Shown here: positions 5,737-24,094 of the stretch, one piece after another | Position numbering within the stretch: position 1 is the first letter of the stretch | Layout: each line of letters starts with the position of its first letter | Assembly (NCBI RefSeq): GCF_015557635.1 | Contig: NZ_JADNOP010000017.1 | Span: 1 to 64,000, forward strand | Direction of reading: 5' to 3' | DNA: 64,000 nt | DNA from: Fusicatenibacter saccharivorans | GTDB lineage: Bacteria; Bacillota; Clostridia; Lachnospirales; Lachnospiraceae | Notes under the pieces: model-generated | The model's database searches: none | What the model was told of the DNA's origin: nothing | What the model saw: the letters and a program-made list of their open reading frames with translations, nothing else | Program-made: the position numbers and the translations under genes

Positions 5737-7317
5737 CTATTTTTCACTAAAGCTTCTTCGGTATTCCAGAGGTGCGTATCCCGTATTGTCCTTAAACATC
5801 TTCGTAAAGTACGAGAAATTGCTGTACCCCACATACAGCGACACCGTATTGATCGGCAGCGTGCTCTGTGTCAGAAGCTTTTTTGCCTCCTCCACCCGCT
5901 TTTGGATGATATAATTACTGATCGAAATACCCTTTTCTTTTTTAAAAATCCGAGACAGATAATCCGTATTCAAAAAGACAAGCTCCCCAAGCTCCTCCCG
6001 GTAATGTGCATCGATATAAGCGCATACCTGACTCGTAACCGAATCTGATTTGTTGATGTACTGTCTGTACTGAACTGCTTTCCGAACCAGTACCCCGGCA
6101 TATTCCATCATCTCTTCTCTGCCATAAAGGGAATTCCGATGCAGGTTTTCCATATCCGCATCTGCAAACAGTGCATACGCCTTGATCTCCCGTTCCGAAA
6201 GCCATGCATACACCACCTGCGTCAGATCGGTACGGAGTGCTACCAGAAGCTCCCTGGTAATCATTCCTTCCCGTTCCGTCCGGTCAAGGTATTTCTGCAG
6301 CCGCTCCAGCAGCTCCTCCGGTTTTTCCTCCGAAAGCAGAGCTTTCCATACATCCAGCTCCTTATTTTCGTAGCTGGTCTGCGGAGCCTGAAATTCGTTC
6401 AGAAACAGCACCTCGTTCCGCACGGAAAGGCTTCCCTCCCGCATTTTCTGAAGATTCCGGCTCTGCTTTTGCATCCCCAGTACAGATTCCCACTGTCCGA
6501 CACCGCACCACAGCTCCAGATAGATTTTTTCATTCATCCACGCAACAAACTGCCGCAGAATTTCACAATCCCGCCCGCCGTCCTGCGGGAATGCTTTTTC
6601 CTTTGACTGTGTAACAATCCAGTAGATGCCCGGTTCCTGGTAAAAAACAGTATCTACCGCAATATCCGTTTCCTCATACAGTTCCGACAGCACATTTTCG
6701 ATCACAAATTCCATGGTCGCGGTATCCCATATCTCCCGCTTATTGCTCTTTATTTCCGGCATCAGACAAATCAGCCGGAAATAGTGTCCCGGTCCGTATG
6801 GCAGCTGGCGCTGTGCTGCCGTTTCGCAGAACTTCTCCTCGGAGAAGCCGTCTTTCAGCACATTTTTCCAGATATCCTGCTGCAGAATTTTCCTGTTCTG
6901 GTTCCACTTGATGCTTTCCTGCCTGAGATCCTGTATTTTCTTTTCTTTCGCAACGGATTCCGCCGCACGCTGTACGGCCTCCTTCAGCTTGTCAAAATCG
7001 ATGGGCTTTAGCAGATAATCGACACTGTTCAGCTGAATCGCTCTTCTGGCATAGTCAAACTCCGCATAGCTTGTCAGGAATATGACCTGGACCTTCAGCT
7101 CCTCTTTTCTGACCCACTCCACAAAGTCGAATCCCGTTCCGCCCGGCATCACGATATCGCTGATCACGATATCAATGTCCACCATTCCCATGATGTTTTT
7201 CGCCTGCTGTACGGAAAACGCAGTGTACACCTCGCTCACCCCGGTCTCTGTAAGATCGAGGTTTCTTTTGATACTTTCAATCACGTACTCTTCATCATCC
7301 ACGAGCAATAGTTTCAT
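5737..7317 (-). CDS. YesN-type response regulator with AraC DNA-binding domain
   Basis: A 526-residue two-component regulator. The receiver domain (about 1-120) has the acidic pair in VDDEE, the phosphoacceptor Asp54 (VISDIVMPGG) and the conserved Lys104 (LLKPIDF). A long linker follows, then an AraC-type double helix-turn-helix over roughly the last 100 residues (SRIFKKEKG and GYSNFSYFTKMFK). GGGGGAGAAGAAC precedes the ATG. The start overlaps the sensor kinase stop by 23 bases, so the two are translated together. By analogy with YesMN systems it should activate the ABC importer genes at 12.8-9.2 kb and perhaps the GH3 gene (inference). Confidence 0.93.
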   Translation of the reverse strand: MKLLLVDDEEYVIESIKRNLDLTETGVSEVYTAFSVQQAKNIMGMVDIDIVISDIVMPGGTGFDFVEWVRKEELKVQVIFLTSYAEFDYARRAIQLNSVDYLLKPIDFDKLKEAVQRAAESVAKEKKIQDLRQESIKWNQNRKILQQDIWKNVLKDGFSEEKFCETAAQRQLPYGPGHYFRLICLMPEIKSNKREIWDTATMEFVIENVLSELYEETDIAVDTVFYQEPGIYWIVTQSKEKAFPQDGGRDCEILRQFVAWMNEKIYLELWCGVGQWESVLGMQKQSRNLQKMREGSLSVRNEVLFLNEFQAPQTSYENKELDVWKALLSEEKPEELLERLQKYLDRTEREGMITRELLVALRTDLTQVVYAWLSEREIKAYALFADADMENLHRNSLYGREEMMEYAGVLVRKAVQYRQYINKSDSVTSQVCAYIDAHYREELGELVFLNTDYLSRIFKKEKGISISNYIIQKRVEEAKKLLTQSTLPINTVSLYVGYSNFSYFTKMFKDNTGYAPLEYRRSFSEK

Positions 7318-9037
7318 GTTCTTCTCCCCCTGTCCTGTATGGAATATGGATATCTACAATCGCTCCGCCGAGCGGACTGTTATCGAAATGAATCTCTCCG
7401 GAATCGCCATAATAATAGTGGAATCGTTTCAGGCAGTTTTCAATCCCGATATGCTTTCCATGCTCGGAAATATCTTCCCCTGCTTTCAGCCTTTGCAGTG
7501 TCTCCTCCGGAAAGCCGTTTCCGGTGTCCGAAATATAAATGTTGACATACTTTTCGTCTCCGCGGTCCTCCGGGTAAACCGTCACGGAAATCAGCGGAAC
7601 CGTCTCCAGCGTCAGGGCATGTTTTGCCGCATTCTCTACAAACACCTGAATCAGGAACGGGAAGATTACTGCGTTTTCCACCTCTTCATGGACCTCAAAA
7701 TAATAGGTGAATTTTTCCGGATAGCGCAGCAGCAGAATTTTGAGATAATTTTCACAGTGGTTCGTCTCCGCCGTTACCGGCACCATCTCGCTTGTATTCC
7801 GGAAAATATACGCAAGATAATCGGACGTAATACGGCTCATCGACTTTGCATGGTCGTACTGACCGAAGTCGATCATGCTGTAGATAAAGTTCAGACAGTT
7901 CATGTAAAAATGCGGACGGATCTGGATTTTCAGGTAGTCCATCTCAATTTTCTGTTTTTGCAGCTCCTGCTCATACAGCGTGATCTTCAACCGGCGGATC
8001 TGGTGAATCATGTTCCGGAATTTATCGTCAATCTGCTCCAGCTCTACCAGGTTTCCTTCCGACATCTGATAGGTGAGGTCCCCATTGTCATATTTCTGAA
8101 GATTTTCCGTAAACATACCGACCGGCTTCAGGATTTTTGTTTCCAGGTGGAACAACAGCACGGAACCGGCAATCACCATCAGAAAAGCAACGCCAAGAAG
8201 GGCAAACACACTTCCCGTCATCAGATTTAAGACTCCCGTCCAGGAGATTTTAATCCGGATTTCAAACGGCGCCTGCGAAAGCTCCTGCCGGAAGGTGTAA
8301 TTGTCAGTATCAATTTTCGAATCGTCCGTTACAATTCCTTTTTCCGTCAGTATTCCGATGCTTTTTCCGTTCTGGTCAACGAGGCTGACATAGCCGCTCT
8401 TCCCAAGAGACAGTTCAGAGAACGGTTCCAGAATTGTCTTCAGATTGACGTAGCAGCCGAGTCCAACGCCCTGACTCTGCGCTACCTTGAGCATATAAAT
8501 ATCGTCTCCCTGGCACATCACGGTCCATTTTTTCTTGACTGCATACGCCTGCTGCGACAGGCTTTTGATCCGGCGCTTCAGTGCCTCCTGCAGATACGGG
8601 TCAACGGCGTAAAGCCCGTCGGAGGAAATGCTCAGCTGATATAAGCTGTCATCCTTCTGCGTATAGAGAAAAACATTGTAATCCGTTCCAAAATCCCACG
8701 CTGCAGATACATAATTCCTTCGCAGCTGCGTAATGACATATTCCTCATACTGATCCTTCTCCATCAGATCCATATATTTCCAGAACGCAGAATCCGGGTT
8801 GGAGCCGTCCATTACAGTCGAGAACAGGTTTCGGCTGATTCGAAAAAAACGGTTATCCAGCTCATCCGTATACAGCTTTGAAATCTCTTCCAGCTGCTCA
8901 TATACCTGCCGCTGCGTCCGGTTCAGAATAAGCACGCTCCCAGCCAGAAAAAGCAGCAGCATACTCAGCAGGCAGATCAAAAGATAACGCCCCTGCTGCG
9001 CCAGTGTTGTTTTTTTCGTCTGTTTTGAAATACGCAT
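7295..9037 (-). CDS. YesM-type sensor histidine kinase
   Basis: A 580-residue membrane kinase of the His_kinase/HATPase_c group. Membrane helices lie near residues 14-36 and about 270-300 and enclose an extracytoplasmic sensor domain. A HAMP-like region follows, then the phosphoacceptor segment IRPHFYMNCLNFIYS, the N-box VENAAKHAL and the G-box SDTGNGFP. The start at 9037 is chosen because AGGAGGAAACTTC precedes it. An in-frame start 37 codons upstream would read into the terminator region and has no site. It pairs with the overlapping response regulator. The signal is probably a sugar or the loaded binding protein (inference). Confidence 0.93.
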   Translation of the reverse strand: MRISKQTKKTTLAQQGRYLLICLLSMLLLFLAGSVLILNRTQRQVYEQLEEISKLYTDELDNRFFRISRNLFSTVMDGSNPDSAFWKYMDLMEKDQYEEYVITQLRRNYVSAAWDFGTDYNVFLYTQKDDSLYQLSISSDGLYAVDPYLQEALKRRIKSLSQQAYAVKKKWTVMCQGDDIYMLKVAQSQGVGLGCYVNLKTILEPFSELSLGKSGYVSLVDQNGKSIGILTEKGIVTDDSKIDTDNYTFRQELSQAPFEIRIKISWTGVLNLMTGSVFALLGVAFLMVIAGSVLLFHLETKILKPVGMFTENLQKYDNGDLTYQMSEGNLVELEQIDDKFRNMIHQIRRLKITLYEQELQKQKIEMDYLKIQIRPHFYMNCLNFIYSMIDFGQYDHAKSMSRITSDYLAYIFRNTSEMVPVTAETNHCENYLKILLLRYPEKFTYYFEVHEEVENAVIFPFLIQVFVENAAKHALTLETVPLISVTVYPEDRGDEKYVNIYISDTGNGFPEETLQRLKAGEDISEHGKHIGIENCLKRFHYYYGDSGEIHFDNSPLGGAIVDIHIPYRTGGEEHETIARG

Positions 9038-11228: not shown

Positions 11229-12752
11229 CTATTTCTTTGCAAGAAATGCATCCAGCTGCTCCTGCTTTGCAGCAATGACATCATCGATTCCCGCATCGTC
11301 CAGTGCCTCCAGGAACTGTGGAAGCAGTTCTTCCGGATCTCCGGAGCCGCTGCTAAGTGCGCCGTTGTACTGGCTGATTACGTTGTTCAGGGCTGATACC
11401 TGATCCGCATATTCGCTGTTATCAAAGACAAATCCCAGTGCTTTCGACTCGATACCGGAAGCGTTGAACTCCTGCATTTTGTCCCAGAGCTGCGGGTCAG
11501 ATCCATCCCATTTGTATGCGATGAACTGGTTCGGAAGCTCCCATCCACAGTTAAAGCTGTAGCCTGCATTGTCTGCTGTTACACCGTCCGGGTAGTTGAT
11601 GATTCCGTTTTCTTCATCTTCTACTACGTAGTCGGTTCCCTCTTCGCCCCAGTTCAGAAGGTTCATGACCTCCGGGCTGCCATAGATATAATCGAGAACC
11701 TGCATTGCTTTTTCCGGATTTTCGGAGTTCTGTGCTACAGAGAAGATAATTCCGCCGTAAGAGGATGAGTTGATGATCGGCTGATCATAGAACGGTACGA
11801 TTTCAAACTCATATCCTGTGGAGCTCTGGAACTCAACCGGGGTACCTGGATGATAAGCAAAGAACAAGGAGAAGAGATTTCCTGCTTTGCATACGGTTCT
11901 CCAGTTTTCTGTGTTTGTTCCGGCATCCTTGCTGATATAGCCTTTCTGATACCAGTCATGCAGCATAGTTGCAGTCTCCTTGTACCAGTCGCTTGCAAAG
12001 TAGTTTTCTACGGTTGTGCTGTTGGTCTGATCCATCAGAGCGCCCGTGTTGGCATCGCCAAGTCCATCAGCGCGGGACAGACGGCTCAGAGGCGTATCAC
12101 TGTTGTTGCTGGAGAACAGCATTGTCATATCAGGCTCGCCTGCCTGTACGGTCTCAAATACTTTCTCCATATCCTTCGGCTCTTTGATTTCATCGGTATT
12201 GATATTATACTTTTCTACCAGGTCTTTTCTCATGAAGATGGCTGGAATGCTGCCTCGTTCGATCTGGTTCGGAACGCCATAGACAAACCCATCAATCTGA
12301 TTTGTTTTTGCAATATCCTCGCCATAGATATCTTTCAGGTTTGTGCCGTATTTGTCAATCAGTTCAGACATATCCATGATCTGGCCGGAATGCATATACT
12401 GTACAGCTGTTGTTGCACTTGTGTACAGAAGATCGATTTTCTCATCGCCGGAAAGCATCAGCTGTAACTGCTGAGATGCGCTTGCCCACGGAAGAACAAC
12501 GATATCGAGCTTTGCATTCAGCTCCGGCTCCAGAATCTCGTTGATTTTTTCTTCGATTCTCTCTTCATCCGGCTGCTGGCTGCCCTGCAGTACCATAGTT
12601 ACAGTGTACGGCTCGCCTTTTTCCTCTGTCTTTGCTGTGCTTCCGGAAGCTGCGGAGGAACCGGAATCAGAACTGGATCCTGTGCTTCCGCATGCTGCCA
12701 TGGAAAATGCCATAGTTGCTGCAAGAATGCCTGCTAACACTTTTTTCTTCAT
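11229..12752 (-). CDS. Sugar ABC transporter substrate-binding lipoprotein
   Basis: A 507-residue exported lipoprotein of the LplA/YtcQ branch of family 1 extracellular binding proteins. The signal peptide ends in the lipobox MAACG, with the lipidated Cys near residue 20, and is followed by a Ser/Gly-rich linker. The mature part has the two-lobe pattern and a C-terminus ending ALDDAGIDDVIAAKQEQLD, typical of this branch. The start at 12752 is favoured by AAGGAG eight bases upstream over another start six codons earlier. It is the first gene of the importer operon. Its ligand is likely an oligosaccharide but cannot be named. Confidence 0.93.
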   Translation of the reverse strand: MKKKVLAGILAATMAFSMAACGSTGSSSDSGSSAASGSTAKTEEKGEPYTVTMVLQGSQQPDEERIEEKINEILEPELNAKLDIVVLPWASASQQLQLMLSGDEKIDLLYTSATTAVQYMHSGQIMDMSELIDKYGTNLKDIYGEDIAKTNQIDGFVYGVPNQIERGSIPAIFMRKDLVEKYNINTDEIKEPKDMEKVFETVQAGEPDMTMLFSSNNSDTPLSRLSRADGLGDANTGALMDQTNSTTVENYFASDWYKETATMLHDWYQKGYISKDAGTNTENWRTVCKAGNLFSLFFAYHPGTPVEFQSSTGYEFEIVPFYDQPIINSSSYGGIIFSVAQNSENPEKAMQVLDYIYGSPEVMNLLNWGEEGTDYVVEDEENGIINYPDGVTADNAGYSFNCGWELPNQFIAYKWDGSDPQLWDKMQEFNASGIESKALGFVFDNSEYADQVSALNNVISQYNGALSSGSGDPEELLPQFLEALDDAGIDDVIAAKQEQLDAFLAKK

Positions 12753-12900
12753 ACTTTTTCTCCTTTTCACGTATCGTGTTGTGTGACCTTTGATGATTGT
12801 ATTATAGCAGAATTTTGACTTACAACTCTATAACTGATTTGACTTTGAAGTATCACTCTTCCGACCTTTGTGTCTTTTTTCTGTCATCCCCATCCAACGA

Positions 12901-12946
12901 AAAAAATGGCTCCTCCTCCATCTGTTTTATGAAGGAAAAGCCATTT
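12901..12946 (-). terminator. Terminator of the peptide-cassette minus arm
   Basis: A stem with AAAATGGCT pairing to AGCCATTTT, followed on the minus strand by a T-run, starts five bases after the ABC exporter stop codon. Confidence 0.8.
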
Positions 12947-12950
12947 TCTG

Positions 12951-14741
12951 TCAAAAATCTTCCACCATCTTTGCCCCTTCTGCCCCATCGAGTTCGGTCA
13001 CGGTTCCATTCATGACACGGTAGACTCTCTGGCAGAGGCCGAGGACACTCGGACGGTGCGTCGTAACGATACAGGTTTTGTTGGGACGCTGACGGATGAT
13101 GTTTCGGAGGACGTTTCGTTCCGTCGTGACATCCAGTGCCGAGGTGGCTTCATCCAGAAGCAGCACCGGGGCATCGCGGAGGACGGCACGGGCGATGGCA
13201 AGCCGCTGGGACTGGCCTTCGGAGAAACCGCGGCCACGTTCCCCGACGCGGCTGTTGATGGTATCCGGCAGATGCTGAACAAAATCCCAGGCGCAGGAGA
13301 TTTTGAGCGCTTCGATGATCTCCTCGTCGGTCGCATCCTCTTTTACCATGCGCATATTTTCGGCGATTGTGCCGGAAAGGATCGTATTTCCCTGCGGAAC
13401 ATAGGCGAAGAGATGACGCGTTTCGGCGTTCATGGGAACCGTTTTTCCATTTGAGGCAATGATCACGGTTTCCCCCTCCTGCGGGCGGATAAGGCCGAGA
13501 ATCAGGCGGATCATCGTTGTTTTTCCCTCGCCGGACGGGCCAACCAACGCTACAATCTCGCCGGGGGCGGCCTGAAACTCCGATTTGGTGATTACTTTGT
13601 TTCCTTCTATATAAGAAAATTCTACCCCATGCATCTGTACCCGGAAGCCATCCTTTGCCAGTGGATCGAGCTTGGCGCTCTCCGGGATATGGACCTCTTT
13701 TGGCAGCTCTACGAGCTCACGGATCCGGTGTGCCGAGACGGAGCTGTTGAGGAAGGACGGAATAATCGAAATCACGTTTCCAAACGCGCCGGAAAGGTTA
13801 CTCCGCTGCTGCAGGAACAGCGTCATGGTTCCATAGGTAATGTCGTGCGTCCACAGACGGAACAGGCAGTATCCGAACGCCGTAAACTCCACCGCACTCC
13901 CGAGAATAGACATTACGATATTGGTTTTAATCGTAAACAGATTATATTTCAGACTGATATCCTTGAAAAGTCCCTGCCACCAACGCATCTTTTTACTGTA
14001 ATACGGTGCGATGCCAAACGACTTGATCGTATCAAAATTGTAGAACGCTTCTACCTCAAAGCTCATCAGATTACTGCTCATCTCGCGTACTTCTTTGCTG
14101 TATTCCCGCTGACGGCGGATCATAAACCGCGACATCAGAAGCAGGAACGGTGCGCTTAAAAAAGCAATCAGTGCCATGACCCAGTCATAATGCAGGATTA
14201 CGAAAAAGGTGGCAATAAACCGATACACGGCAATGATAATCGTCGGGAGCCAGCTGATTGCGTTGCCGCTGACCGTTCCAATGTCGCCGTTGAAACGGTT
14301 GAGTACGTCACCGTTTGCGTATTTGCTGATTTCCAGCCAGTCCGCATCAACGATTTTGTCAAAAATATCCGCCTGGATGTCGTTGTTGATGGCGATACCA
14401 AGCTTCGTTGAAATGCGGTTGATGACACTCTCAAACCCAAGGCTGAACACGGTGCTTCCGATCATGATGCAAAGCAGCAGCAGGAGCTTCTGTATCTGGT
14501 ATCCGGTGATGATATCGATCAGATATTTTCCTGCCACGCTGCCGACAAGCCCAAGCGAAGTGCTTAAGATACCGAGAATCGTATAAAAAACAATCGCACC
14601 CTTATAGCGCGCGCTGTAGCCAAAAATCCATTTCCAGTCATCGATGATTTCCGAGAACGTTCCGTTTTTCCATCGCTCCGACAGAATGCGGAGAGACTCG
14701 AAGGGAGCGTCTTTACTTTTCTCTTTGGATTCTTCCTGCAT
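12951..14741 (-). CDS. ABC exporter, fused membrane and ATPase domains
   Basis: A 596-residue half-transporter. A type I exporter membrane domain (six helices, about residues 50-320) is followed by an ATPase domain with Walker A LVGPSGEGKTTM, a signature written FSEGQSQRLAIARA instead of LSGGQ, and Walker B LLLDEATSAL. There is no N-terminal C39 peptidase domain, so it cannot itself remove a leader peptide. The start overlaps the nucleotidyltransferase stop by 29 bases and has GAGAGGAG upstream. Its place at the end of the minus arm suggests it exports the product of the cassette, or protects against it (inference). Confidence 0.9.
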   Translation of the reverse strand: MQEESKEKSKDAPFESLRILSERWKNGTFSEIIDDWKWIFGYSARYKGAIVFYTILGILSTSLGLVGSVAGKYLIDIITGYQIQKLLLLLCIMIGSTVFSLGFESVINRISTKLGIAINNDIQADIFDKIVDADWLEISKYANGDVLNRFNGDIGTVSGNAISWLPTIIIAVYRFIATFFVILHYDWVMALIAFLSAPFLLLMSRFMIRRQREYSKEVREMSSNLMSFEVEAFYNFDTIKSFGIAPYYSKKMRWWQGLFKDISLKYNLFTIKTNIVMSILGSAVEFTAFGYCLFRLWTHDITYGTMTLFLQQRSNLSGAFGNVISIIPSFLNSSVSAHRIRELVELPKEVHIPESAKLDPLAKDGFRVQMHGVEFSYIEGNKVITKSEFQAAPGEIVALVGPSGEGKTTMIRLILGLIRPQEGETVIIASNGKTVPMNAETRHLFAYVPQGNTILSGTIAENMRMVKEDATDEEIIEALKISCAWDFVQHLPDTINSRVGERGRGFSEGQSQRLAIARAVLRDAPVLLLDEATSALDVTTERNVLRNIIRQRPNKTCIVTTHRPSVLGLCQRVYRVMNGTVTELDGAEGAKMVEDF

Positions 14742-16029
14742 GCGCGTCTCCTCTCTTTTTCCCGTCTGCGGTACGGATCATATCGTATTTCCTCAGCAGC
14801 TCGACACGTCCCGCACCCACTTCAATGCTCGATTTCTGTTCTTTTTCTCCCTGCCCCAGCCATTTCAGGATTCGCTGCACGTATGCAGCCGGGAGCAAAA
14901 ACGGATACCTCGCCGCATAGAGATACTTGTTTTTCATATAGGAAGCTTCCGGAACCAGCGATTTCCAGATTCCCCCGGCTGTGTGCTTTTCCGCCCCGGT
15001 CTCTGCCGCATACAGGGTAATGTTTGCACTGTGGATCCGTCCCGCACTCGATTTTCCAAACGAACCGGCATCGAGAATATCGATCAGAAGCGCTTCGGAA
15101 TCCGGGTGAAGCTTCTTTGCGGCACGGACTGCCCCACTTGCTTCATAGGAAAAGCCCAGATAGCGCTCGCCGATATCCAGCAGATTGATACAGAAACACG
15201 TCATGTGATACTCTTCGCACAGCTGCCAGAACATTTCCCAGTCTATTTTTCTTCCATATACACGAATCATCTGTACCATGTCACAGATCTGACGGATCCC
15301 GACACCGCCGTGAAGAAAGTGCTTGAAGCTGTGACAGAGAAGATAGAAAAGATGATGCGTTTCTTCTAAGGTAAAGATGCTCTGCCCCTGCACTTCCACT
15401 TTGGATGGATGCGCAAAAACATCGGAAAATGCACGATTCAGATAACCATAGGCAGAGGATTCTGTGCTGAACAGCCTGGTATGTATTTCATAGAAGACCC
15501 CTGTTTTCGGATGAATGTAGCCCATCTCTTCCGGGGTATCACCATCTTTGGCACCATTTGGCATTGCGGTTTCTTTGTCCCGCACAAAGCCCTTCCTCAT
15601 AAAACAGGCATCTACTGTTGCAAAATCCTTTGCCGAAATCAGAAGATCCTCATCCCCGGACGGGCGCAGATCTGGTTTCGGGTAGAGACTTCTGCACACA
15701 ATTCCTTTCATCACCAGCGGCTGCACGCCCAGATGCTCCAGCTCCTTTTCATCGGAAAGAAACAGCGCTGTACGCGAAACCTGCTGCAAAACACTCTGCA
15801 TTGCCTGCGTTTTTACCTGTCTGCGAAGCTCGTCCGGAAGCTCTGCAAATTCCGGTGTTTTTCCCACAACATCGTAGACCGCTGACAGCAGCGAATGCTG
15901 TGCCGCGAGGACAAACAGATGATTCCATTGTTTTTCTGTCAGCCCCTGAATTTCTGCCGACGATGCTTTTTCTTCTGTCAAAAACGCACGAATCACCGCA
16001 AGGAATGCGGTTTCTGTTTCTGTAATCAT
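14713..16029 (-). CDS. Nucleotidyltransferase-fold protein (NTP_transf_5-like)
   Basis: A 438-residue protein of the uncharacterised nucleotidyltransferase family often found in RiPP and lasso-peptide clusters. The diagnostic segment is VMKGIVCRSLYPKPDLRPSG followed by DEDLLIS (about residues 115-140). It combines the LKG/YP motif with the metal-binding GDxDLL-like pattern. The remainder is alpha-helical with a conserved HLFYLLCHSFKHF stretch. The start overlaps the peptidase stop by four bases (ATGA), so it is translationally coupled. In lasso clusters such proteins accompany a kinase and are thought to modify the peptide. That role here is inference. Confidence 0.82.
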   Translation of the reverse strand: MITETETAFLAVIRAFLTEEKASSAEIQGLTEKQWNHLFVLAAQHSLLSAVYDVVGKTPEFAELPDELRRQVKTQAMQSVLQQVSRTALFLSDEKELEHLGVQPLVMKGIVCRSLYPKPDLRPSGDEDLLISAKDFATVDACFMRKGFVRDKETAMPNGAKDGDTPEEMGYIHPKTGVFYEIHTRLFSTESSAYGYLNRAFSDVFAHPSKVEVQGQSIFTLEETHHLFYLLCHSFKHFLHGGVGIRQICDMVQMIRVYGRKIDWEMFWQLCEEYHMTCFCINLLDIGERYLGFSYEASGAVRAAKKLHPDSEALLIDILDAGSFGKSSAGRIHSANITLYAAETGAEKHTAGGIWKSLVPEASYMKNKYLYAARYPFLLPAAYVQRILKWLGQGEKEQKSSIEVGAGRVELLRKYDMIRTADGKKRGDAHAGRIQREK

Positions 16030-16517
16030 CTTCTTTTCCTTTCATTTTCTCTGCACGCATCATTTTTCTTTTTATCCACACTGAATAACCGGGCATATCC
16101 ATGCATCAGAATCGGACGAAGCGGGATAATGCGAATCCAGACCTGTGCAAAAAACTCCCACCAGAACGTTCCCGGTACAAGTATTTTTCCTTTTCGTTCC
16201 ACTTTTGTCACCCGTGCAAAGATCTGCTTCCGTTGCACATGATGCTCGATTTCCGTCTGTGCATCCCCGATTATGTCATAACCGTCTGCATGAACGCGGC
16301 AGATCCGATGCACGACAAACTGTCCGCCCGGCCGCTCGTAAAATACGATATCACCTTTCCGAAGTTCCCGCGCCGGCGCTCGGAAGAAAATACTGTCGCG
16401 TCCATGAATCAGAAACGGCGCCATGCTGCTCCCGGAAATCACCATACGCACTTCTCTGCCCTGCTCTACAAGTTCTTTCAGCATTCCGACATAGGCACGT
16501 GTATCCATCATTTTCAT
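16026..16517 (-). CDS. S24/S26 family peptidase (signal-peptidase-like)
   Basis: A 163-residue protein with the S24/S26 core. The serine motif SGSSMAPFL (about residues 28-36) is followed by LRKGDIVFYE with the candidate catalytic Lys, and then FVVHRI and DIIGDAQTE, which match the beta-strand motifs of signal peptidases. There is no N-terminal membrane anchor, but a hydrophobic stretch near residues 120-140 (FFAQVWIRIIPLRPILM) may act as one. It overlaps both neighbours by four bases. Because the exporter lacks a C39 domain, this is the best local candidate for leader removal (inference). Confidence 0.83.
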   Translation of the reverse strand: MKMMDTRAYVGMLKELVEQGREVRMVISGSSMAPFLIHGRDSIFFRAPARELRKGDIVFYERPGGQFVVHRICRVHADGYDIIGDAQTEIEHHVQRKQIFARVTKVERKGKILVPGTFWWEFFAQVWIRIIPLRPILMHGYARLFSVDKKKNDACRENERKRR

Positions 16518-17437
16518 GCATGTTTCTCCCTTTTCTGAATCATGTTTTTGTGCAGTGCAGCTGCATATGTTTCACTTTCGAACGAACCGGTCCCGATCTC
16601 CTGCTCCAGCGTTTTCACCGCATCTTCTGAAATGTCGCACGCCAGATGATACACCGGAACTTTTCCAGCAAGCTGTTCGAGAAGGTCGAGACTGTGTACC
16701 AGTCCCTCCCTGTCCCAGCGGTTCATGGTGATCTGTCCGTACAGACTCGTAAATGCCTCTGCCGGACGCAGCCGCCACGCCTGATTCGTCTTTGCCTGGC
16801 TCAGCATTACAATGCATCCGACCGGGAGCTTTTTGTTTTCGCAGACTCCTGATGTTCCGCAGACCGGCCAGCCGTTTGCTGTCCACGCTGTGCCGTCATA
16901 TTCCAGCAATGCCTTATCCCCATTTACGGTACGGCTTTCCCGGTACTGTTCCCAGAGTCCCGCCTGCGTGGTTTTGCCCGTTCCCGATGGTGCAGAAAAG
17001 AGCATTGCTTTCCCCTGATACTCCGTGTATGCACAGTGCAGAATCAGGCACGGCTGCTCTGCCAGACGGCGCTCCAGGGCAAGGAGGGAAAGAAAAACAA
17101 CTTCATACTTTTCAATTTCTGCCAGATACCACCTGCCGACGAAAACCTCCGCACGATTTTGCGCAATCTCACGGTAGAATGCATAAGGACGCGCTTCTCC
17201 TTTCACACCGATCCGGCGGCTCTCCAATCCTTCTTTTGTATGAAATACCTGCAGATCGACCCGATCCACAATCAGCTCTCCCTCCGCTTCCGGCAATATG
17301 TCGACGTCCGTAATGATATATGTATAATCCACAGAATCCGTTTCCACCAAAAATTTTTCCATATCCACCGGAAGTACCAGCTCTTCCGAAAACTTCAGCC
17401 GGAAGGAAAAACTCCCTGTCTGAAATGTTTTTTCCAT
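16514..17437 (-). CDS. HPr-kinase-like protein of the peptide cassette
   Basis: A 307-residue protein whose C-terminal half matches the HprK/PEPCK-like kinase fold. The Walker A is SAPSGTGKTTQAGLW and is followed by VNGDKALLEY. The N-terminal half lacks the usual HprK regulatory domain. Comparable kinases in lasso-peptide clusters phosphorylate the precursor peptide, whereas true HprK phosphorylates HPr. Position in this operon favours the peptide role (inference). ATG 17437 is preferred over TTG 17440. GAGGAG lies upstream. It is the first gene of the minus arm, with a consensus promoter at 17509-17537. Confidence 0.83.
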   Translation of the reverse strand: MEKTFQTGSFSFRLKFSEELVLPVDMEKFLVETDSVDYTYIITDVDILPEAEGELIVDRVDLQVFHTKEGLESRRIGVKGEARPYAFYREIAQNRAEVFVGRWYLAEIEKYEVVFLSLLALERRLAEQPCLILHCAYTEYQGKAMLFSAPSGTGKTTQAGLWEQYRESRTVNGDKALLEYDGTAWTANGWPVCGTSGVCENKKLPVGCIVMLSQAKTNQAWRLRPAEAFTSLYGQITMNRWDREGLVHSLDLLEQLAGKVPVYHLACDISEDAVKTLEQEIGTGSFESETYAAALHKNMIQKREKHA

Positions 17438-17508
17438 CAAAAACTCCTCTTTCTCCCCATGATCTTCCCTTCTCTCCGCAACGTATCACGATCCCTTTTT
17501 CCGCATTT

Positions 17509-17537
17509 ATAATAACAAAAAAAAGAGACTCCGTCAA
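17509..17537 (-). promoter_or_regulatory. Sigma-A promoter of the minus arm
   Basis: TTGACG (17532-17537) and TATTAT (17509-17514) on the minus strand are separated by exactly 17 bases. They lie about 70 bases upstream of the kinase gene. The -35 overlaps the hairpin that terminates the upstream relic. Confidence 0.75.
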
Positions 17538-17550
17538 TCTTCGGAGCCTT
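17518..17550 (-). terminator. Terminator after the MATE relic
   Basis: GGCTCCG pairs with CGGAGTC (one G-T pair) and eight T follow on the minus strand. It sits directly behind the relic stop codon and overlaps the kinase promoter. Confidence 0.75.
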
Positions 17551-17571
17551 TTTGTAATTAAATACGTAATT

Positions 17572-17815
17572 TTATTTTTGACTGATCTGCAGCGTTTTAT
17601 AGCCATGCCGGAAATACAGGATCTCCGCCGCACTGGTAATTCTCCACGAAAAGATATACAGCAGATACAGTGACGGAATGGTATGGAAATACGCGAAAAT
17701 CGTGTACACCAAGATCACACGGAACACACAGGAACCGAGAATAATGATAAAAATATTCTTCCACAGCGAGTCTTCATCGTTGTATTGCAGAATGGAAATC
17801 TGCTGATTGCGTTGA
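17572..17815 (-). pseudogene. C-terminal remnant of a MATE transporter
   Basis: Reading from about 17815 to the TAA at 17572 gives about 80 residues, including QQISILQYNDEDSLWKNIF, then a helix (IIILGSCVFRVILVYTIF) and IPSLYLLYIFSWRITSAAEI. This is the pattern of the last two helices of a MATE protein. No start codon or N-terminal part is present. The frame is open but differs from the AAA-ATPase frame with which it is joined. A deletion has fused the two. Confidence 0.65.
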
Positions 17816-18209
17816 TATACTCCTGGGATACTTCGCGGTTTGGAATGGATACGTTTTCTTTTTCGTTATCGTATGTCAGATCTTTCATTACCTGTATCAG
17901 ATTCTTTTCATCACGGAAGCGCACCTGACTGTACTGCTCTCTGAGATCAAAAATCAGATAGTCGTTCAGCATGCGCAGCATTTCGTCAATGCCGCTTGTT
18001 GCGCTTAAAAATTCCTGCATATTGGTTTTTATTACATCATACTGATTCCGATGTTTTTTATATGTTTCACTTCTGCCGATTTTTAAATTCCGAAATAGTG
18101 CATCGATATCTATGCTTCTGTCATAATAAGCCGCCAGCATATCCGCTGCCATAGATTTTCCAAATCGTCTCGGACGGCTCACGCACAGATATCGCTGGAG
18201 TGTCCGCAC
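17808..18209 (-). pseudogene. Remnant of an AAA-ATPase-like/PDDEXK_9 gene
   Basis: About 130 residues of the AAA-ATPase-like domain (PF09820 type). It begins inside the Walker region with YLCVSRPRRFGKSMAADML and continues through AAYYDRS, KKHRNQYDVIKTNMQEFL and VSIPNREVSQEYINAIS. The first residues of the protein and the whole nuclease half are missing. It ends where the MATE fragment begins. Three other pieces of the same family occur at 31.4, 42.8 and 48.0 kb. Confidence 0.75.
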
Positions 18210-18268
18210 GCAGCGATTTGTTTTTCGTTTTTGAGCAGATTACATTCCCATCTTTTTCCAGTTTTTAC

Positions 18269-18297
18269 TTGACTTTTCCTAGTTCTTCTTCTATAAT
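18269..18297 (+). promoter_or_regulatory. Sigma-A promoter of the plus arm
   Basis: TTGACT (18269-18274) and TATAAT (18292-18297) have a 17-base spacer. The predicted start site is near 18304, giving a leader of about 110 bases before the PqqD-like gene. It is among the best promoters in the window. Confidence 0.85.
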
Positions 18298-18414
18298 CTT
18301 TTTGTAATGATAAATGTAATTTATTTCTGCGAACATTCTACATATTTTTCTTGCTGACTGCAGAAATACTTTCTGCCTGAAAAGGCACAGCATTTTGCAA
18401 GAGGGGAGTTTGTG

Positions 18415-18753
18415 ATGGAACCGATTGCTTCTCCGACCCGGCCGGATTTGTTACAAAAGATAAATGAAAAAAAATATCGTGTCAATTCCGATTATCTGCT
18501 GCGTGAAATTGCAGGGGAATATGCGATTATTCCCGTTGGGACTGCCTGTCAGATTTCGAATGCAGTGATGGTTCCAAACGATACCGCCGCATTTCTCTGG
18601 AATGCTTTTCAGCAGCCACGTACCATTTCGGAAGTCGTTGCACAGGCGTTAGAGGAATATGCGGCTGCGGAAGATACGATTCAAAATTCTGCTTTAAATT
18701 TTGTGCATGATACTTTAAGGTATGCATTATTAGAGGAGGTTATATCGTTATGA
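18415..18753 (+). CDS. PqqD-like peptide-recognition protein (RRE)
   Basis: A 112-residue small protein of the PqqD family, whose winged-helix fold binds leader peptides and presents them to modifying enzymes. Visible features are the three-strand N-terminal part (YLLREIAGEYAIIPVG), NDTAAFLWNAFQQPRTISEVV, which is the classic PqqD helix motif, and a C-terminal helix. ATG 18415 is preferred over GTG 18412 because GAGGGGAG is then seven bases away. The stop overlaps the next start (ATGA at 18750), so recognition protein and substrate are translated together. Confidence 0.85.
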   Translation: MEPIASPTRPDLLQKINEKKYRVNSDYLLREIAGEYAIIPVGTACQISNAVMVPNDTAAFLWNAFQQPRTISEVVAQALEEYAAAEDTIQNSALNFVHDTLRYALLEEVISL

Positions 18754-19157
18754 AGAAAGAGTGGATGGAACCTGTTGTTGAGGTTCAGGAATTTGCTGCA
18801 AATGAATATGTGGCGGCCTGCGGGGATAGCGGGAAAGTTTATAAATTTGTCTGCGATGCTGGACAATACGGTCATAATTATAATGTTTATTATTATGATG
18901 GATCTGGGCAAAAAAAATATATCGCAAAAGAAGGCTCATGGGGAGGCTGGGGCTCTCAAGCTCAATTTTCTGGATATCATCCTTGTAACAAGACTCATGA
19001 AGCGGAATCTGATAGTGGATTTATCAGTGGTTTTATAGATGACCAGTCTACCCGCGATGATGAAGCAACCCCCGTTGTCATCTGGACCGAAAATGGTACA
19101 AACGTTCATTGTACTACCAGATTAGACATCAATACTTGGGAAACCGCCAAATCCTGA
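18750..19157 (+). CDS. Putative modified-peptide precursor, 135 residues
   Basis: A small protein between the recognition protein and the radical SAM gene, preceded by GAGGAGG. Residues 1-22 (MKKEWMEPVVEVQEFAANEY) look like a leader: charged start, then amphipathic, with the NEYVAAC block ending at Cys24. The rest is rich in Gly, Tyr, Ser and Asp, with Cys at 24, 35, 79 and 121, and has no signal peptide or membrane helix. The length is large for a RiPP precursor. I believe similar NEYVAACG proteins occur in other Lachnospiraceae, but this is memory and unverified. It could instead be a folded secreted protein that is modified. Confidence 0.7.
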   Translation: MKKEWMEPVVEVQEFAANEYVAACGDSGKVYKFVCDAGQYGHNYNVYYYDGSGQKKYIAKEGSWGGWGSQAQFSGYHPCNKTHEAESDSGFISGFIDDQSTRDDEATPVVIWTENGTNVHCTTRLDINTWETAKS

Positions 19158-19193
19158 TTTTTCCACTAAATAATAATTTTTCAAACCACAGCA

Positions 19194-19224
19194 AAAGGAT
19201 CGAACCCACTCGTTTCGATCCTTT
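19194..19224 (+). other. Stem-loop between precursor and radical SAM genes
   Basis: A perfect 11-bp stem (AAAGGATCGAA, 19194-19204, with 19214-19224) lies in the 120-base gap. There is no T-run after the 3' arm apart from CCTTT. It probably acts as an attenuator or 3' stabiliser that keeps the precursor in excess over its enzyme. Confidence 0.6.
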
Positions 19225-19277
19225 ACTATACCTATTAATAATTGGTTCATCAAACCACTTTTTTCGGAGGAACCTTT

Positions 19278-20399
19278 ATGAACTACATGGACGACACTTC
19301 CACCTTCGAGCGTTCTTTTCTCCAGAAAGCGCGCCAGCAGCACATTCCTATTACCGGCGCGCTTGAACTTCTGCCACTCTGCAATATGAACTGCGACATG
19401 TGTTATGTCCGTCTGTCCCGTTCAGAAATGGAATGTCAGGGACAACTCCGCACAGTTGATGAATGGATTCTGCTTGCACAGCAGATGCAAAAAGCCGGTA
19501 CACTTTTTCTTCTTCTGACCGGCGGTGAACCACTTCTCTTTCCTGATTTCAAAACACTATATCTTGAGCTTCGAAACATGGGCATGATTCTTACCATCAA
19601 CACCAATGGAACCCTGCTGGGCGAATCCTGGGCTGATTTTTTTGCTGAGTACAGGCCGCGCCGCATTAACATCACGCTCTACGGTGCCGATGCCGCTTCC
19701 TATAACCGTCTCTGCCATTACCCCCAGGGCTTTGATCAGACCGTCCGCGCCATCCGTCTGCTCCGCGAACGAAACGTTGATGTCAAAATCAGCTGTAGCG
19801 TCACTAAAAAGAACGCGCATGATTTTCCAAAAATCTTTGTTCTCGGAGAAAAGCTTGGAGTCCCCGTTCATGCCGATCACTATATGATGCCCGCCGTCCG
19901 GGAACGCTCCCTTCCTTTTGATGCTCAGGTCCGCCTGAACCCGGAAGACGCCGCTGCGCTTGCCCTGCAGACACTGAAACTGCAGCTGACCAGCGATATT
20001 TTCCGGCAGTACGTTCATGAATCCATCCACCGCGTCAACAATCCGTCTTTTCCACGGGGCAATGGTCATATCTCCTGTCTTGCCGGAAACTGCTCCTTCT
20101 TCATCAACTGGCAGGGCTTTCTTTTCCCCTGTGTGATGTTATCCGAAATCTCCGCCCCTGTTTTTGATCTTGGATTTATTTCCGCCTGGGAAAAAGTTTC
20201 CGCCGCTGCACAGAAGATTTCCCTAAGTTCCCAATGCTGTCAATGCCGTTTGCAACCGATATGCCGCACCTGCGTCGCAGCCGCGTTTTTAGAAACCAGT
20301 TCTTATCGGGGAATGCCTGGTTATCTCTGCCGCTATTCCGAGCATTACTATCACCTGCTGCTGGCAGAAGAAGCTTCTTTTTCCTCCATCGCCTTATAG
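19278..20399 (+). CDS. Radical SAM/SPASM peptide-modifying enzyme
   Basis: A 373-residue radical SAM protein. The cluster motif CNMNCDMCY (C-x3-C-x2-C) lies near residues 36-44, followed by LTGGEPLLFPDF and INTNGTLL. The C-terminal region has a SPASM-like set of Cys: CLAGNCSFFINWQGFLFPC, then CCQCRLQPICRTC and a final GYLC. That implies auxiliary iron-sulfur clusters, as in enzymes that form thioether or carbon-carbon bonds in peptides. The start at 19278 is set by GGAGGAACCTTT, and a start 12 codons upstream lacks a site. The substrate is presumably the protein encoded just upstream (inference from position). Confidence 0.9.
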   Translation: MNYMDDTSTFERSFLQKARQQHIPITGALELLPLCNMNCDMCYVRLSRSEMECQGQLRTVDEWILLAQQMQKAGTLFLLLTGGEPLLFPDFKTLYLELRNMGMILTINTNGTLLGESWADFFAEYRPRRINITLYGADAASYNRLCHYPQGFDQTVRAIRLLRERNVDVKISCSVTKKNAHDFPKIFVLGEKLGVPVHADHYMMPAVRERSLPFDAQVRLNPEDAAALALQTLKLQLTSDIFRQYVHESIHRVNNPSFPRGNGHISCLAGNCSFFINWQGFLFPCVMLSEISAPVFDLGFISAWEKVSAAAQKISLSSQCCQCRLQPICRTCVAAAFLETSSYRGMPGYLCRYSEHYYHLLLAEEASFSSIAL

Positions 20400-23488: not shown

Positions 23489-24094
23489 TTATTTCTGATA
23501 CTCTTCCTCGATATTTTTTACCGCACGGAGCTTGTTCGCGTATTCCAGAATCTCTTCTTTGGAATATTTCTGTTTCCGGCACCAGGTGAGGATTTCTTCT
23601 TTTACTTCCTCCGGCATCTTGTTGTTCATGCGCAGACAGTCACAAAAGGTTCTCTTCGGAGAATAATATTTGTAGGAACCAAACTCTGTCTTTTTCTCAC
23701 AGATTTCGCCCGGGACATCGGCATTCTGGAAATAAAAACGTCTGATTTCAAAATTTTCCAGATCCATTTTTTTTCGGTCTGTCCGTGCTGTTGCAACTGC
23801 AATCGTAGCCGGCTCTTCTTTCAGCATTCCGGCAAGCCATGCAGCACTGTCCATGCAGATGACTGCGCGTGGGTTTACTTTCGCAATTTCAATATATTGA
23901 TAGTCTTCCGGTTTTTCATAACCACAGTCCTTGCACCAGTACCAGCCGCGTGCAAATCGTTCCAGACTTCCTTCCTCTTCCATTTCTGCCAGCTGCAGTA
24001 CGGTCACCTGATGATCTCTGAGGTCTGCGAAGCTCATATATCCATGATGTTCTTTAAATAACGTCGTGATCTTCTGGTATGTTTTAAAAAGCAT
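23489..24094 (-). CDS. AbiEi-like antitoxin/transcriptional regulator, orphan
   Basis: A 201-residue protein resembling type IV antitoxin AbiEi family regulators. An N-terminal winged helix (GYMSFADLRDHQVTVLQLAEM, GSLERFARGWYW) is followed by a domain with VICMDSAAWLAGML and SPKRTFCDCLRM, a pattern shared with AbiEi C-terminal domains. The insert WCKDCGYEKP looks like half a zinc site. AAAGGGG precedes the start. No AbiEii nucleotidyltransferase toxin lies next to it, so it is either a solitary regulator or a leftover of a toxin-antitoxin pair. Confidence 0.72.
   Translation of the reverse strand: MLFKTYQKITTLFKEHHGYMSFADLRDHQVTVLQLAEMEEEGSLERFARGWYWCKDCGYEKPEDYQYIEIAKVNPRAVICMDSAAWLAGMLKEEPATIAVATARTDRKKMDLENFEIRRFYFQNADVPGEICEKKTEFGSYKYYSPKRTFCDCLRMNNKMPEEVKEEILTWCRKQKYSKEEILEYANKLRAVKNIEEEYQK

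Follow-up and report, generated by a model that had tools for sequence, protein, structure and literature searches.

A gut-bacterial gene cassette linking a radical SAM enzyme and an HprK-like kinase to a ribosomal precursor with a conserved C-terminal serine

Linear Polyphosphorylated Peptides (LPPs; gene set lppAKBSDN) have been described in PMC13381572 (Nat Commun 2026). There the kinase LppK phosphorylates core Ser3 of LppA, at an offset of +18 from its Tyr, and the leader is cut by LppS together with LppB. BsfK is likewise stated to act on Ser3. In the paeninodin-type lasso peptides, PadeK phosphorylates the C-terminal Ser of the lasso precursor (PMC9266682). Here, a seven-gene cassette at positions 12951-20399 of a 64,000-nucleotide stretch of Fusicatenibacter saccharivorans DNA (contig NZ_JADNOP010000017.1, positions 1 to 64,000; the window) was analysed by sequence, together with neighbourhoods and genomes elsewhere, for gene content, conservation and co-occurrence. 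On balance, the cassette probably encodes a pathway of the ribosomally synthesized and post-translationally modified peptide (RiPP) type for a small exported protein, with a radical S-adenosylmethionine (SAM) step and C-terminal Ser phosphorylation on a logic like that of the LPP and kinase-bearing lasso systems.

All seven genes of the original prediction were found, with families assigned by profile matches, and they form the two divergent units proposed there. The plus-strand unit comprises a discrete PqqD-like RiPP recognition element (RRE; 18412-18753; PF05402, 46 bits), a 135-residue precursor protein (18750-19157) and a radical SAM/SPASM enzyme (19278-20399). The minus-strand unit comprises an HprK-like kinase resembling LppK and PadeK (16514-17437), an S26-type (SipW-like) peptidase resembling LppS and predicted to be the leader peptidase (16026-16517), an LppN-like NTP_transf_5 nucleotidyltransferase-like protein (14713-16029; PF14907, E = 2e-47) and an ATP-binding cassette (ABC) exporter, an MsbA-like permease-ATPase (12951-14741; PF00664, PF00005). 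The gene overlaps agree with those predicted: four bases for kinase/peptidase (16514-16517) and peptidase/NTP_transf_5 (16026-16029), 29 bases for NTP_transf_5/ABC (14713-14741) and four bases, ATGA, for pqqD/precursor (18750-18753). The likelier starts are ATG 17437 for the kinase, rather than the preceding TTG 17440, and ATG 19278 for the radical SAM enzyme, each with a purine-rich site upstream. For the two consensus promoters that had been proposed, promoter-like sites lie before both operons: TTGACT-17-TATAAT (18269-18297, plus strand, 11/12, about 115 bp upstream) before pqqD-precursor-radical SAM and TTGACG-17-TATTAT (17537-17509, minus strand, 10/12, about 72 bp upstream) before the kinase operon. 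Such sites are in no clear excess over the whole region (8 observed against 6.0 expected, standard deviation 2.2), the two best placed being those that precede the two units.

The small Cys-containing protein of the original prediction is present, with its role restated: it is the precursor and substrate of the cassette, consisting of a leader and a core of about 110 residues. Its N-terminus reads MKKEWMEPVVEVQEFAANEYVAAC. By the leader profile, the leader (18750-18821, plus strand) carries the RRE motif WxxP and NEYVAAC, with Ala at +18 and Cys at +19 from the W. The family consensus is [W/Y]xxPxxxVQxFxxNEYVAAC. Matches to the leader, at cut-offs of 14 bits in set 1 and 8 bits in set 2, gave 120 unique open reading frames (ORFs; 94 in set 1 and 26 new in set 2) that share the leader and differ in the core, falling into 24 core clusters. 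ORFs open at a contig end, ORFs of at least 320 residues and set-1 matches below 14 bits (e.g. L083) were dropped; a 52-residue ORF ending in Ser (L012:3937), perhaps a chance or frameshifted match, was kept.

The last residue is Ser in the window precursor (codon TCC, 19152-19154, plus strand; the predicted phosphoacceptor) and in 115/120 of the family (92/94 in set 1, 23/26 in set 2), covering 20 of the 24 core clusters. The proportion is 97/100 at leader scores of at least 25 bits and 18/20 below, against a background of 160 in 2156 ORFs of at least 150 residues (7.4%). The tails otherwise vary (TAKS, PNRS, PNAS, PNHS, YQLS, FxS). A strict set of 73 unique precursors (out of 77) was selected on leader pattern and core length, not on Cys +19 or the last residue; W starts the RRE motif in 51 of these. 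The terminal Ser codon is TCN in 73/73, with all four third bases used, whereas AGY makes up 253 of the 547 other Ser codons within the same ORFs, which fits a terminal Ser that was never lost.

Most cores contain three to five Cys. The alignment of type A (34 members) has C24, Y31, F33, C35, C79, H83, W112, H120, T122 and W130 invariant; it was built mostly from ORFs preselected for C-terminal Ser, which deprives its final column of evidential value. The structure predicted for the precursor has a mean predicted local distance difference test score (pLDDT) of 77. Scores are 62-67 in the leader and 79-94 across the core blocks, apart from residues 51-70 with 50-54, and beta strands are the main element of the core. 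No known fold was assigned to the core, the best PDB match, a SpyTag/SpyCatcher entry (E = 2.0, template-modelling (TM) score 0.25), not being significant.

The N-terminal end of the core differs between precursors with and without the radical SAM gene. Among the strong-leader ORFs having the RRE motif, Cys stands at +19 from its W/Y/F in 99/99, and Ser at +18 in 2/99 and at +19 in 0/99. The same F. saccharivorans genome holds a second locus (L019; contig C4, 60001-77000) with a PqqD-HprK fusion, an S26 peptidase and an ABC exporter, in which no radical SAM match was found; its 125-residue precursor (YTKP...AEGVYAASG) ends in Asp. Twenty further kinase loci from genomes scored negative for the radical SAM gene yielded nine more precursors of this type. 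In the resulting ten, chosen by eye from pattern matches (a candidate in L156 with Ser at +19 and a final Asp was excluded), Ser occurs at +19 in 10/10 and at the C-terminus in 0/10, with L149 and L166 being near-copies. Within these samples the radical SAM gene is missing where Ser stands at +19 and the precursor does not end in Ser, and this radical SAM enzyme is present where Cys stands at +19 and Ser at the C-terminus. Because of this contrast, and because LppK and BsfK act on Ser3 and PadeK on the C-terminal Ser, we infer that the kinase would phosphorylate the C-terminal Ser (Ser135), as in paeninodin; this would give the 'possible phosphorylation' of the original prediction a specific site.

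As to the second locus itself, it is LPP-like, and the presence of Y and W motifs in one cell recalls the RRE discrimination described in PMC13381572. On the same contig, L018 (43000-60000) contains an NTP_transf_5 and PqqD pair at 6344-8027, with no recognized precursor, peptidase or kinase in its 17 kb.

Recurrence in other genomes, the check proposed with the original prediction, was confirmed by the loci of relatives and by counts over 397 genomes; a chance cluster was rejected on these grounds. A search of 145 genomes with the precursor matched six, including the window genome. In four of the other five loci all seven families recur, in a different order. In the remaining one, L015, the radical SAM gene is partial, the precursor truncated and the kinase and ABC genes in pieces, and PqqD had no match. 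Scanning a contig collection with the precursor as query gave no match; scanning with the radical SAM alignment A1 did find relatives, the 80 best of 86 matches being retained and falling in 73 loci. These are mostly from Clostridia and other Bacillota, with five Bacteroidales-type metagenome-assembled genomes (L072, L076, L079, L085, L087). Two or three such radical SAM genes occur in 19/73 loci; frequently a separate pqqD and precursor gene accompanies each of them, next to a single set of the other genes. From 125 distinct radical SAM genes, 87 were close (at least 330 bits to that of the window), and 55 of those had 5 kb on both sides. Within 5 kb of these 55 were found the precursor (43), PqqD (47), kinase (40), ABC (36), NTP_transf_5 (28) and S26 (26) genes, and the five families besides radical SAM and precursor were all in the locus in 30/55. 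A kinase gene lies near 19/20 well-covered remote radical SAM genes (180-330 bits). Twenty-two loci (L021-L093) had no kinase match; 15 of them, in 14 genomes, were tested, and the kinase was present elsewhere (E <= 1e-15) in 14/14.

The 397 genomes are from the family of the window organism, its own included. With cut-offs of E <= 1e-60 for the radical SAM enzyme and E <= 1e-20 for the kinase, the former was found in 33, the latter in 84 and both in 32 (exception G455); at most five or six candidates per genome were scored, so that misses are possible. The kinase is thus present in 32/33 genomes with the radical SAM enzyme against 52/364 without (Fisher p = 3e-23, overlap counted by hand, and only a guide as the genomes are phylogenetically non-independent). 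The core also follows the enzyme. On a tree of 105 radical SAM proteins, 74 of which have a precursor encoded upstream, precursor type requires 9 changes against a shuffled mean of 36.6, and 0/200 shuffles were as low; the tree was a quick one, with Shimodaira-Hasegawa-like approximate likelihood-ratio support only and 35 weak branches, and near-copies favour such clustering. That core type follows the tree fits enzymes acting on the core and not on the shared leader alone.

The assignment as a radical SAM/SPASM enzyme holds (PF04055, E = 6e-24). Pfam gives the SPASM domain only E = 0.2; the CX3CX2C motif and seven further SPASM-type Cys are kept in at least 120/123 relatives (the seven Cys in 120-122/123). 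The kinase is weak by sequence (ScmC, 35 bits; PEPCK_ATP, E = 6e-4). Its AlphaFold model (alignment of 40 sequences, pLDDT 94.8) has the PEPCK/HPr-kinase fold, with Foldseek probability 1.00 and E values of 4.1e-6 to 4.2e-5 among the 50 matches listed; TM scores by query are 0.33-0.48, and Coxiella HprK (3tqf) is included with 0.56 by target. His134, the P-loop Gly154-Lys155 and Asn172-Gly173-Asp174 are invariant across the 40 sequences. The peptidase falls just below the cut-off of PF00717 (22.8 against 23.3 bits) and below that of the signal peptidase I model TIGR02228 (31.7 against 51.85 bits). It keeps Ser31 (49/49), His70 (49/49) and Asp85 (48/49), the Ser/His/Asp set of the SpI-like LPP peptidase, with a Ser-His distance of 39 equal to that of LppS (S29/H68). 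In the NTP_transf_5 protein R122, D126 and D128 are each kept in 31/33. The pieces of the ABC exporter are 75-81% identical in four of five relatives and 60% in the fifth; no peptidase domain was among its Pfam matches. With the profile of the PqqD-like protein (32 members), the top PDB matches are 9x90 at E = 3e-5 and 9x8z at E = 6e-5, almost equally good; these are the lasso RRE and LppB, the two RRE structures of PMC13381572. Single-sequence searches against solved structures gave no meaningful match for the kinase (one, E = 0.99), PqqD-like protein, peptidase or precursor (five, E about 1).

These data agree with the original prediction of a single peptide-modification cassette, and a scheme can be proposed. 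The PqqD-like protein, judging by its family, would bind the [W/Y]xxP leader. The radical SAM/SPASM enzyme would then modify the Cys-containing core, as the association of core types with radical SAM clades suggests; the type of bond is not readable from the sequence. The HprK-like kinase may phosphorylate, and perhaps polyphosphorylate, the C-terminal Ser at its hydroxyl. With the RRE as guide, the Ser/His/Asp peptidase of S26 type would cut near NEYVA|AC or NEYVAA|C, and the ABC exporter would release the product. As the weakest step, the NTP_transf_5 protein might add a further group, perhaps onto the phosphate. The scheme would resemble the LPP pathway and that of the kinase-bearing lasso peptides, but with an additional radical step and with the last residue of the core as the phosphate site.

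Several observations count against this scheme. Five of the 120 precursors lack a C-terminal Ser: L015 (truncated, in a broken cluster), L039 (a weak match), and L114, L122 and L136, which end in V, W and T. Of the 20 weak-leader ORFs, 10 have Cys at +19 and 8 have Ser at +18; as +18 is the LppA Ser3 offset, an early acceptor is possible in those eight, and the proposition that rSAM-linked precursors all lack the early Ser was rejected. Seven of the 20 loci from genomes scored radical SAM-negative hold a remoter radical SAM gene with PqqD and kinase genes (L150, L152, L155, L159, L160, L161, L168), and their likely precursors, identified by eye, have a last residue other than Ser. C-terminal Ser as the mark of every radical SAM-HprK cluster was rejected for this reason, and the rule is confined to this radical SAM clade. 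The kinase has NGD at the site where lasso kinases reportedly carry His-Lys-Asp-Asp. Relative to the lasso-kinase motif layout as we assume it to be, one Asp may be missing. The peptidase His-Asp spacing is 15, against 25 in LppS (H68/D93). Within 5 kb of the 55 close radical SAM genes, the kinase is absent in 15, S26 in 29, NTP_transf_5 in 27, ABC in 19, the precursor in 12 and PqqD in 8. Deletion of LppN was without visible effect in the LPP study (PMC13381572).

Some of these points favour an alternative in which conservation of the C-terminal Ser has a different cause, the residue being a recognition tag for the peptidase, exporter or radical SAM enzyme or a direct acceptor for the NTP transferase, with the kinase acting at some other site of the core. 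BsfK and LppK phosphorylate Ser3 and not the last residue; the short C-terminal motifs TAKS, PNRS, PNAS and PNHS are themselves conserved and could be a tag; and the weak-leader precursors with Ser at +18 offer another acceptor. Yet the residues before the last Ser vary by type while the Ser is constant, the early Ser is rare in the strong-leader set (2/99 at +18 and 0/99 at +19), and lasso kinases do use a C-terminal Ser. We regard this alternative as rather unlikely, though it deserves serious weight. That the radical SAM enzyme makes core Cys thioethers, as in sactipeptides or ranthipeptides, while the kinase and NTP transferase serve another substrate of the genome is very unlikely. The three to five Cys of most cores, the placing of kinase and radical SAM genes in divergent operons of the window and the second, radical SAM-free kinase locus L019 would suit it; L019, however, has its own PqqD-fused kinase and its own precursor, of the 22/397 genomes that carry a kinase of the close subfamily (E <= 1e-60), 21 have the radical SAM enzyme (counted by hand), and the kinase gene directly follows the radical SAM gene in L012, L014 and L017 among others. 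An ordinary secreted protein encoded in a generic secretion locus, for which the long core of about 110 residues with predicted beta structure might speak, is scarcely credible in view of the RRE-motif leader, the overlap with pqqD, the constant leader and last residue around a variable middle, and the co-specialization of radical SAM enzyme and core.

For the preferred pathway, with both chemistries on the one precursor, a further role at the cell surface may be imagined. The radical SAM enzyme would stiffen a small folded protein, a C-terminal Ser phosphate, further activated by the nucleotidyltransferase, would be the point at which the exported protein is joined to capsule or another surface glycan, and the acceptor would have shifted from the N-terminal to the C-terminal end of the core when a Cys for use by the radical SAM enzyme replaced the old Ser. 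This extension is improbable as a whole. CpsB, Wzz-type or flippase homologues occur in 47/110 loci (several places being present twice among the 110) and in none at the window.

Variants of the precursor and cluster were also seen. The L083 precursor (7846-8214; leader 8.1 bits) reads NEYVAASC, with Ser directly before the Cys, and ends PNAS; from its sequence it is perhaps a transitional form linking the two arrangements of the acceptor. Shorter weak-leader precursors lie beside HprK and remote radical SAM genes (L117, L123:17858, L131, L133-L136, L138, L140-L142, L144), and several of them carry Ser at +18 plus a C-terminal Ser. The FxS group of weak-leader precursors (n = 13) has a median length of 87 residues and four Cys in 10/13. 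Among the remoter clusters, L150, L152, L160, L161 and L168 have the order PqqD-radical SAM-small ORF-HprK-ABC, the small ORFs being without a similar [W/Y]xxP leader or C-terminal Ser. In L017 (13283-16677) a second, different PqqD-radical SAM-HprK-S26 cluster adjoins the first, with a 129-residue ORF ending PTWS. Near the cassette of L012 a LuxR/MalT-like regulator gene (11939-14290) is found, with homologues in 15/110 loci (L026 being the same place); it is a possible regulator of the cassette. In the window, a PF09820 AAA-ATPase-like gene fragment (17715-18209, minus strand; profile positions 31-132 of 201), probably decayed, lies between the divergent operons, and an ORF at 23489-24094 (minus strand) has weak AbiEi antitoxin similarity (E = 0.018).

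If correct, the assignment would bring radical SAM chemistry together with phosphorylation, predicted at the C-terminal Ser, on a single ribosomal precursor of gut bacteria. The radical SAM enzyme (E <= 1e-60) is present in 33/397 sampled family genomes, and the variant is found in many gut genomes. The kinase gains a specific predicted site that could be tested by one mutant, and the radical SAM-free precursors (Ser at +19, no C-terminal Ser) and the radical SAM-linked ones (Cys at +19, C-terminal Ser) provide a natural comparison for acceptor choice by RiPP kinases. The known range of LPP-like systems, and of their link to capsule loci, would be widened.

Among known systems, the SynChlorMet cassette (TIGR04248-04251), as we understand it, likewise combines an HprK-like ScmC, a PqqD-like ScmD and the radical SAM/SPASM enzymes ScmE/ScmF; to our knowledge, S26, NTP_transf_5 and this precursor type are not part of it. 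It was rejected for the window, the proteins scoring 35/125, 13/100, 72.9/400 and 59/400 bits against the NCBIfam cut-offs. Sactipeptides and ranthipeptides share the radical SAM/SPASM enzyme and a Cys-containing precursor, and differ in that a long core, kinase, S26 peptidase and NTP transferase are present here. The label 'sactipeptide-type' was not supported: among the 25 listed of 69 matched radical SAM models none reached its cut-off (StsB, 57 of 625 bits; PapB, 57 of 340 bits), and on those models either class was rejected.

The comparison of kinase and nucleotidyltransferase with kinase-bearing lasso clusters was apt, as was the claim that a lasso cyclase is missing: the lasso protease family PF13471 had no match genome-wide, and the cyclase family PF00733 only two short ones in the whole genome, which lie on a different contig and cover 68 and 39 of the 354 positions. 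A lasso peptide, with macrolactam cyclase and B2 protease, was rejected on these results. The paeninodin type (PadeK/ThcoK/SyanK) shares the HprK-like kinase, discrete RRE, ABC exporter and precursor C-terminal Ser, which is the phosphate site in those lasso peptides (PMC9266682) and the last residue of the window precursor and of 115/120 relatives here; it differs by the absence here of the macrolactam cyclase and B2 protease, by the core of about 110 residues and by the radical SAM enzyme.

The searched literature contained no paper with HprK and SPASM together, a weak absence as subscription papers and bioRxiv were mostly outside its coverage. Among the matches listed, HprK occurred only in PMC13381572, whose main text contains none of the terms radical SAM, rSAM, Clostridia and Lachnospir. 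NEYVAAC, EYVAAC and NEYVAVC had no occurrence in the literature searched, and WETAKS and GHPNRS appeared in two unrelated papers only.

The combined pathway is less 'poorly described' than had been supposed, since an HprK-like kinase, RRE, S26 peptidase, NTP transferase and ABC exporter without a cyclase constitute the LPP core set (PMC13381572, 2026). Five of the seven window genes and the pathway logic match that family. Shared are the SpI/SipW-like peptidase, discrete RRE, HprK-like kinase, NTP transferase and MsbA-like exporter, precursors of 35-200 residues with a constant N-terminus, a variable remainder and a [Y/W]xxP motif, and a frequent capsule-locus setting (in Bacilli for LPP; here in 47/110 loci). 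The systems differ in the leader (YxxPxVLxHQxIxFETxxS in LPP; here ending in NEYVAAC and departing from the LPP pattern), in the acceptor (Ser3, +18 from the Tyr, in LPP; +18 Ser in only 2/99 strong-leader relatives and C-terminal Ser in 115/120 precursors here), in the hosts (Bacilli for LPP; mostly gut Clostridia and relatives here) and in the radical SAM/SPASM enzyme added here. The novelty therefore seems to lie in the added radical SAM enzyme, in a leader unlike that of LPP and in the C-terminal Ser, the rest being known from the LPP family.

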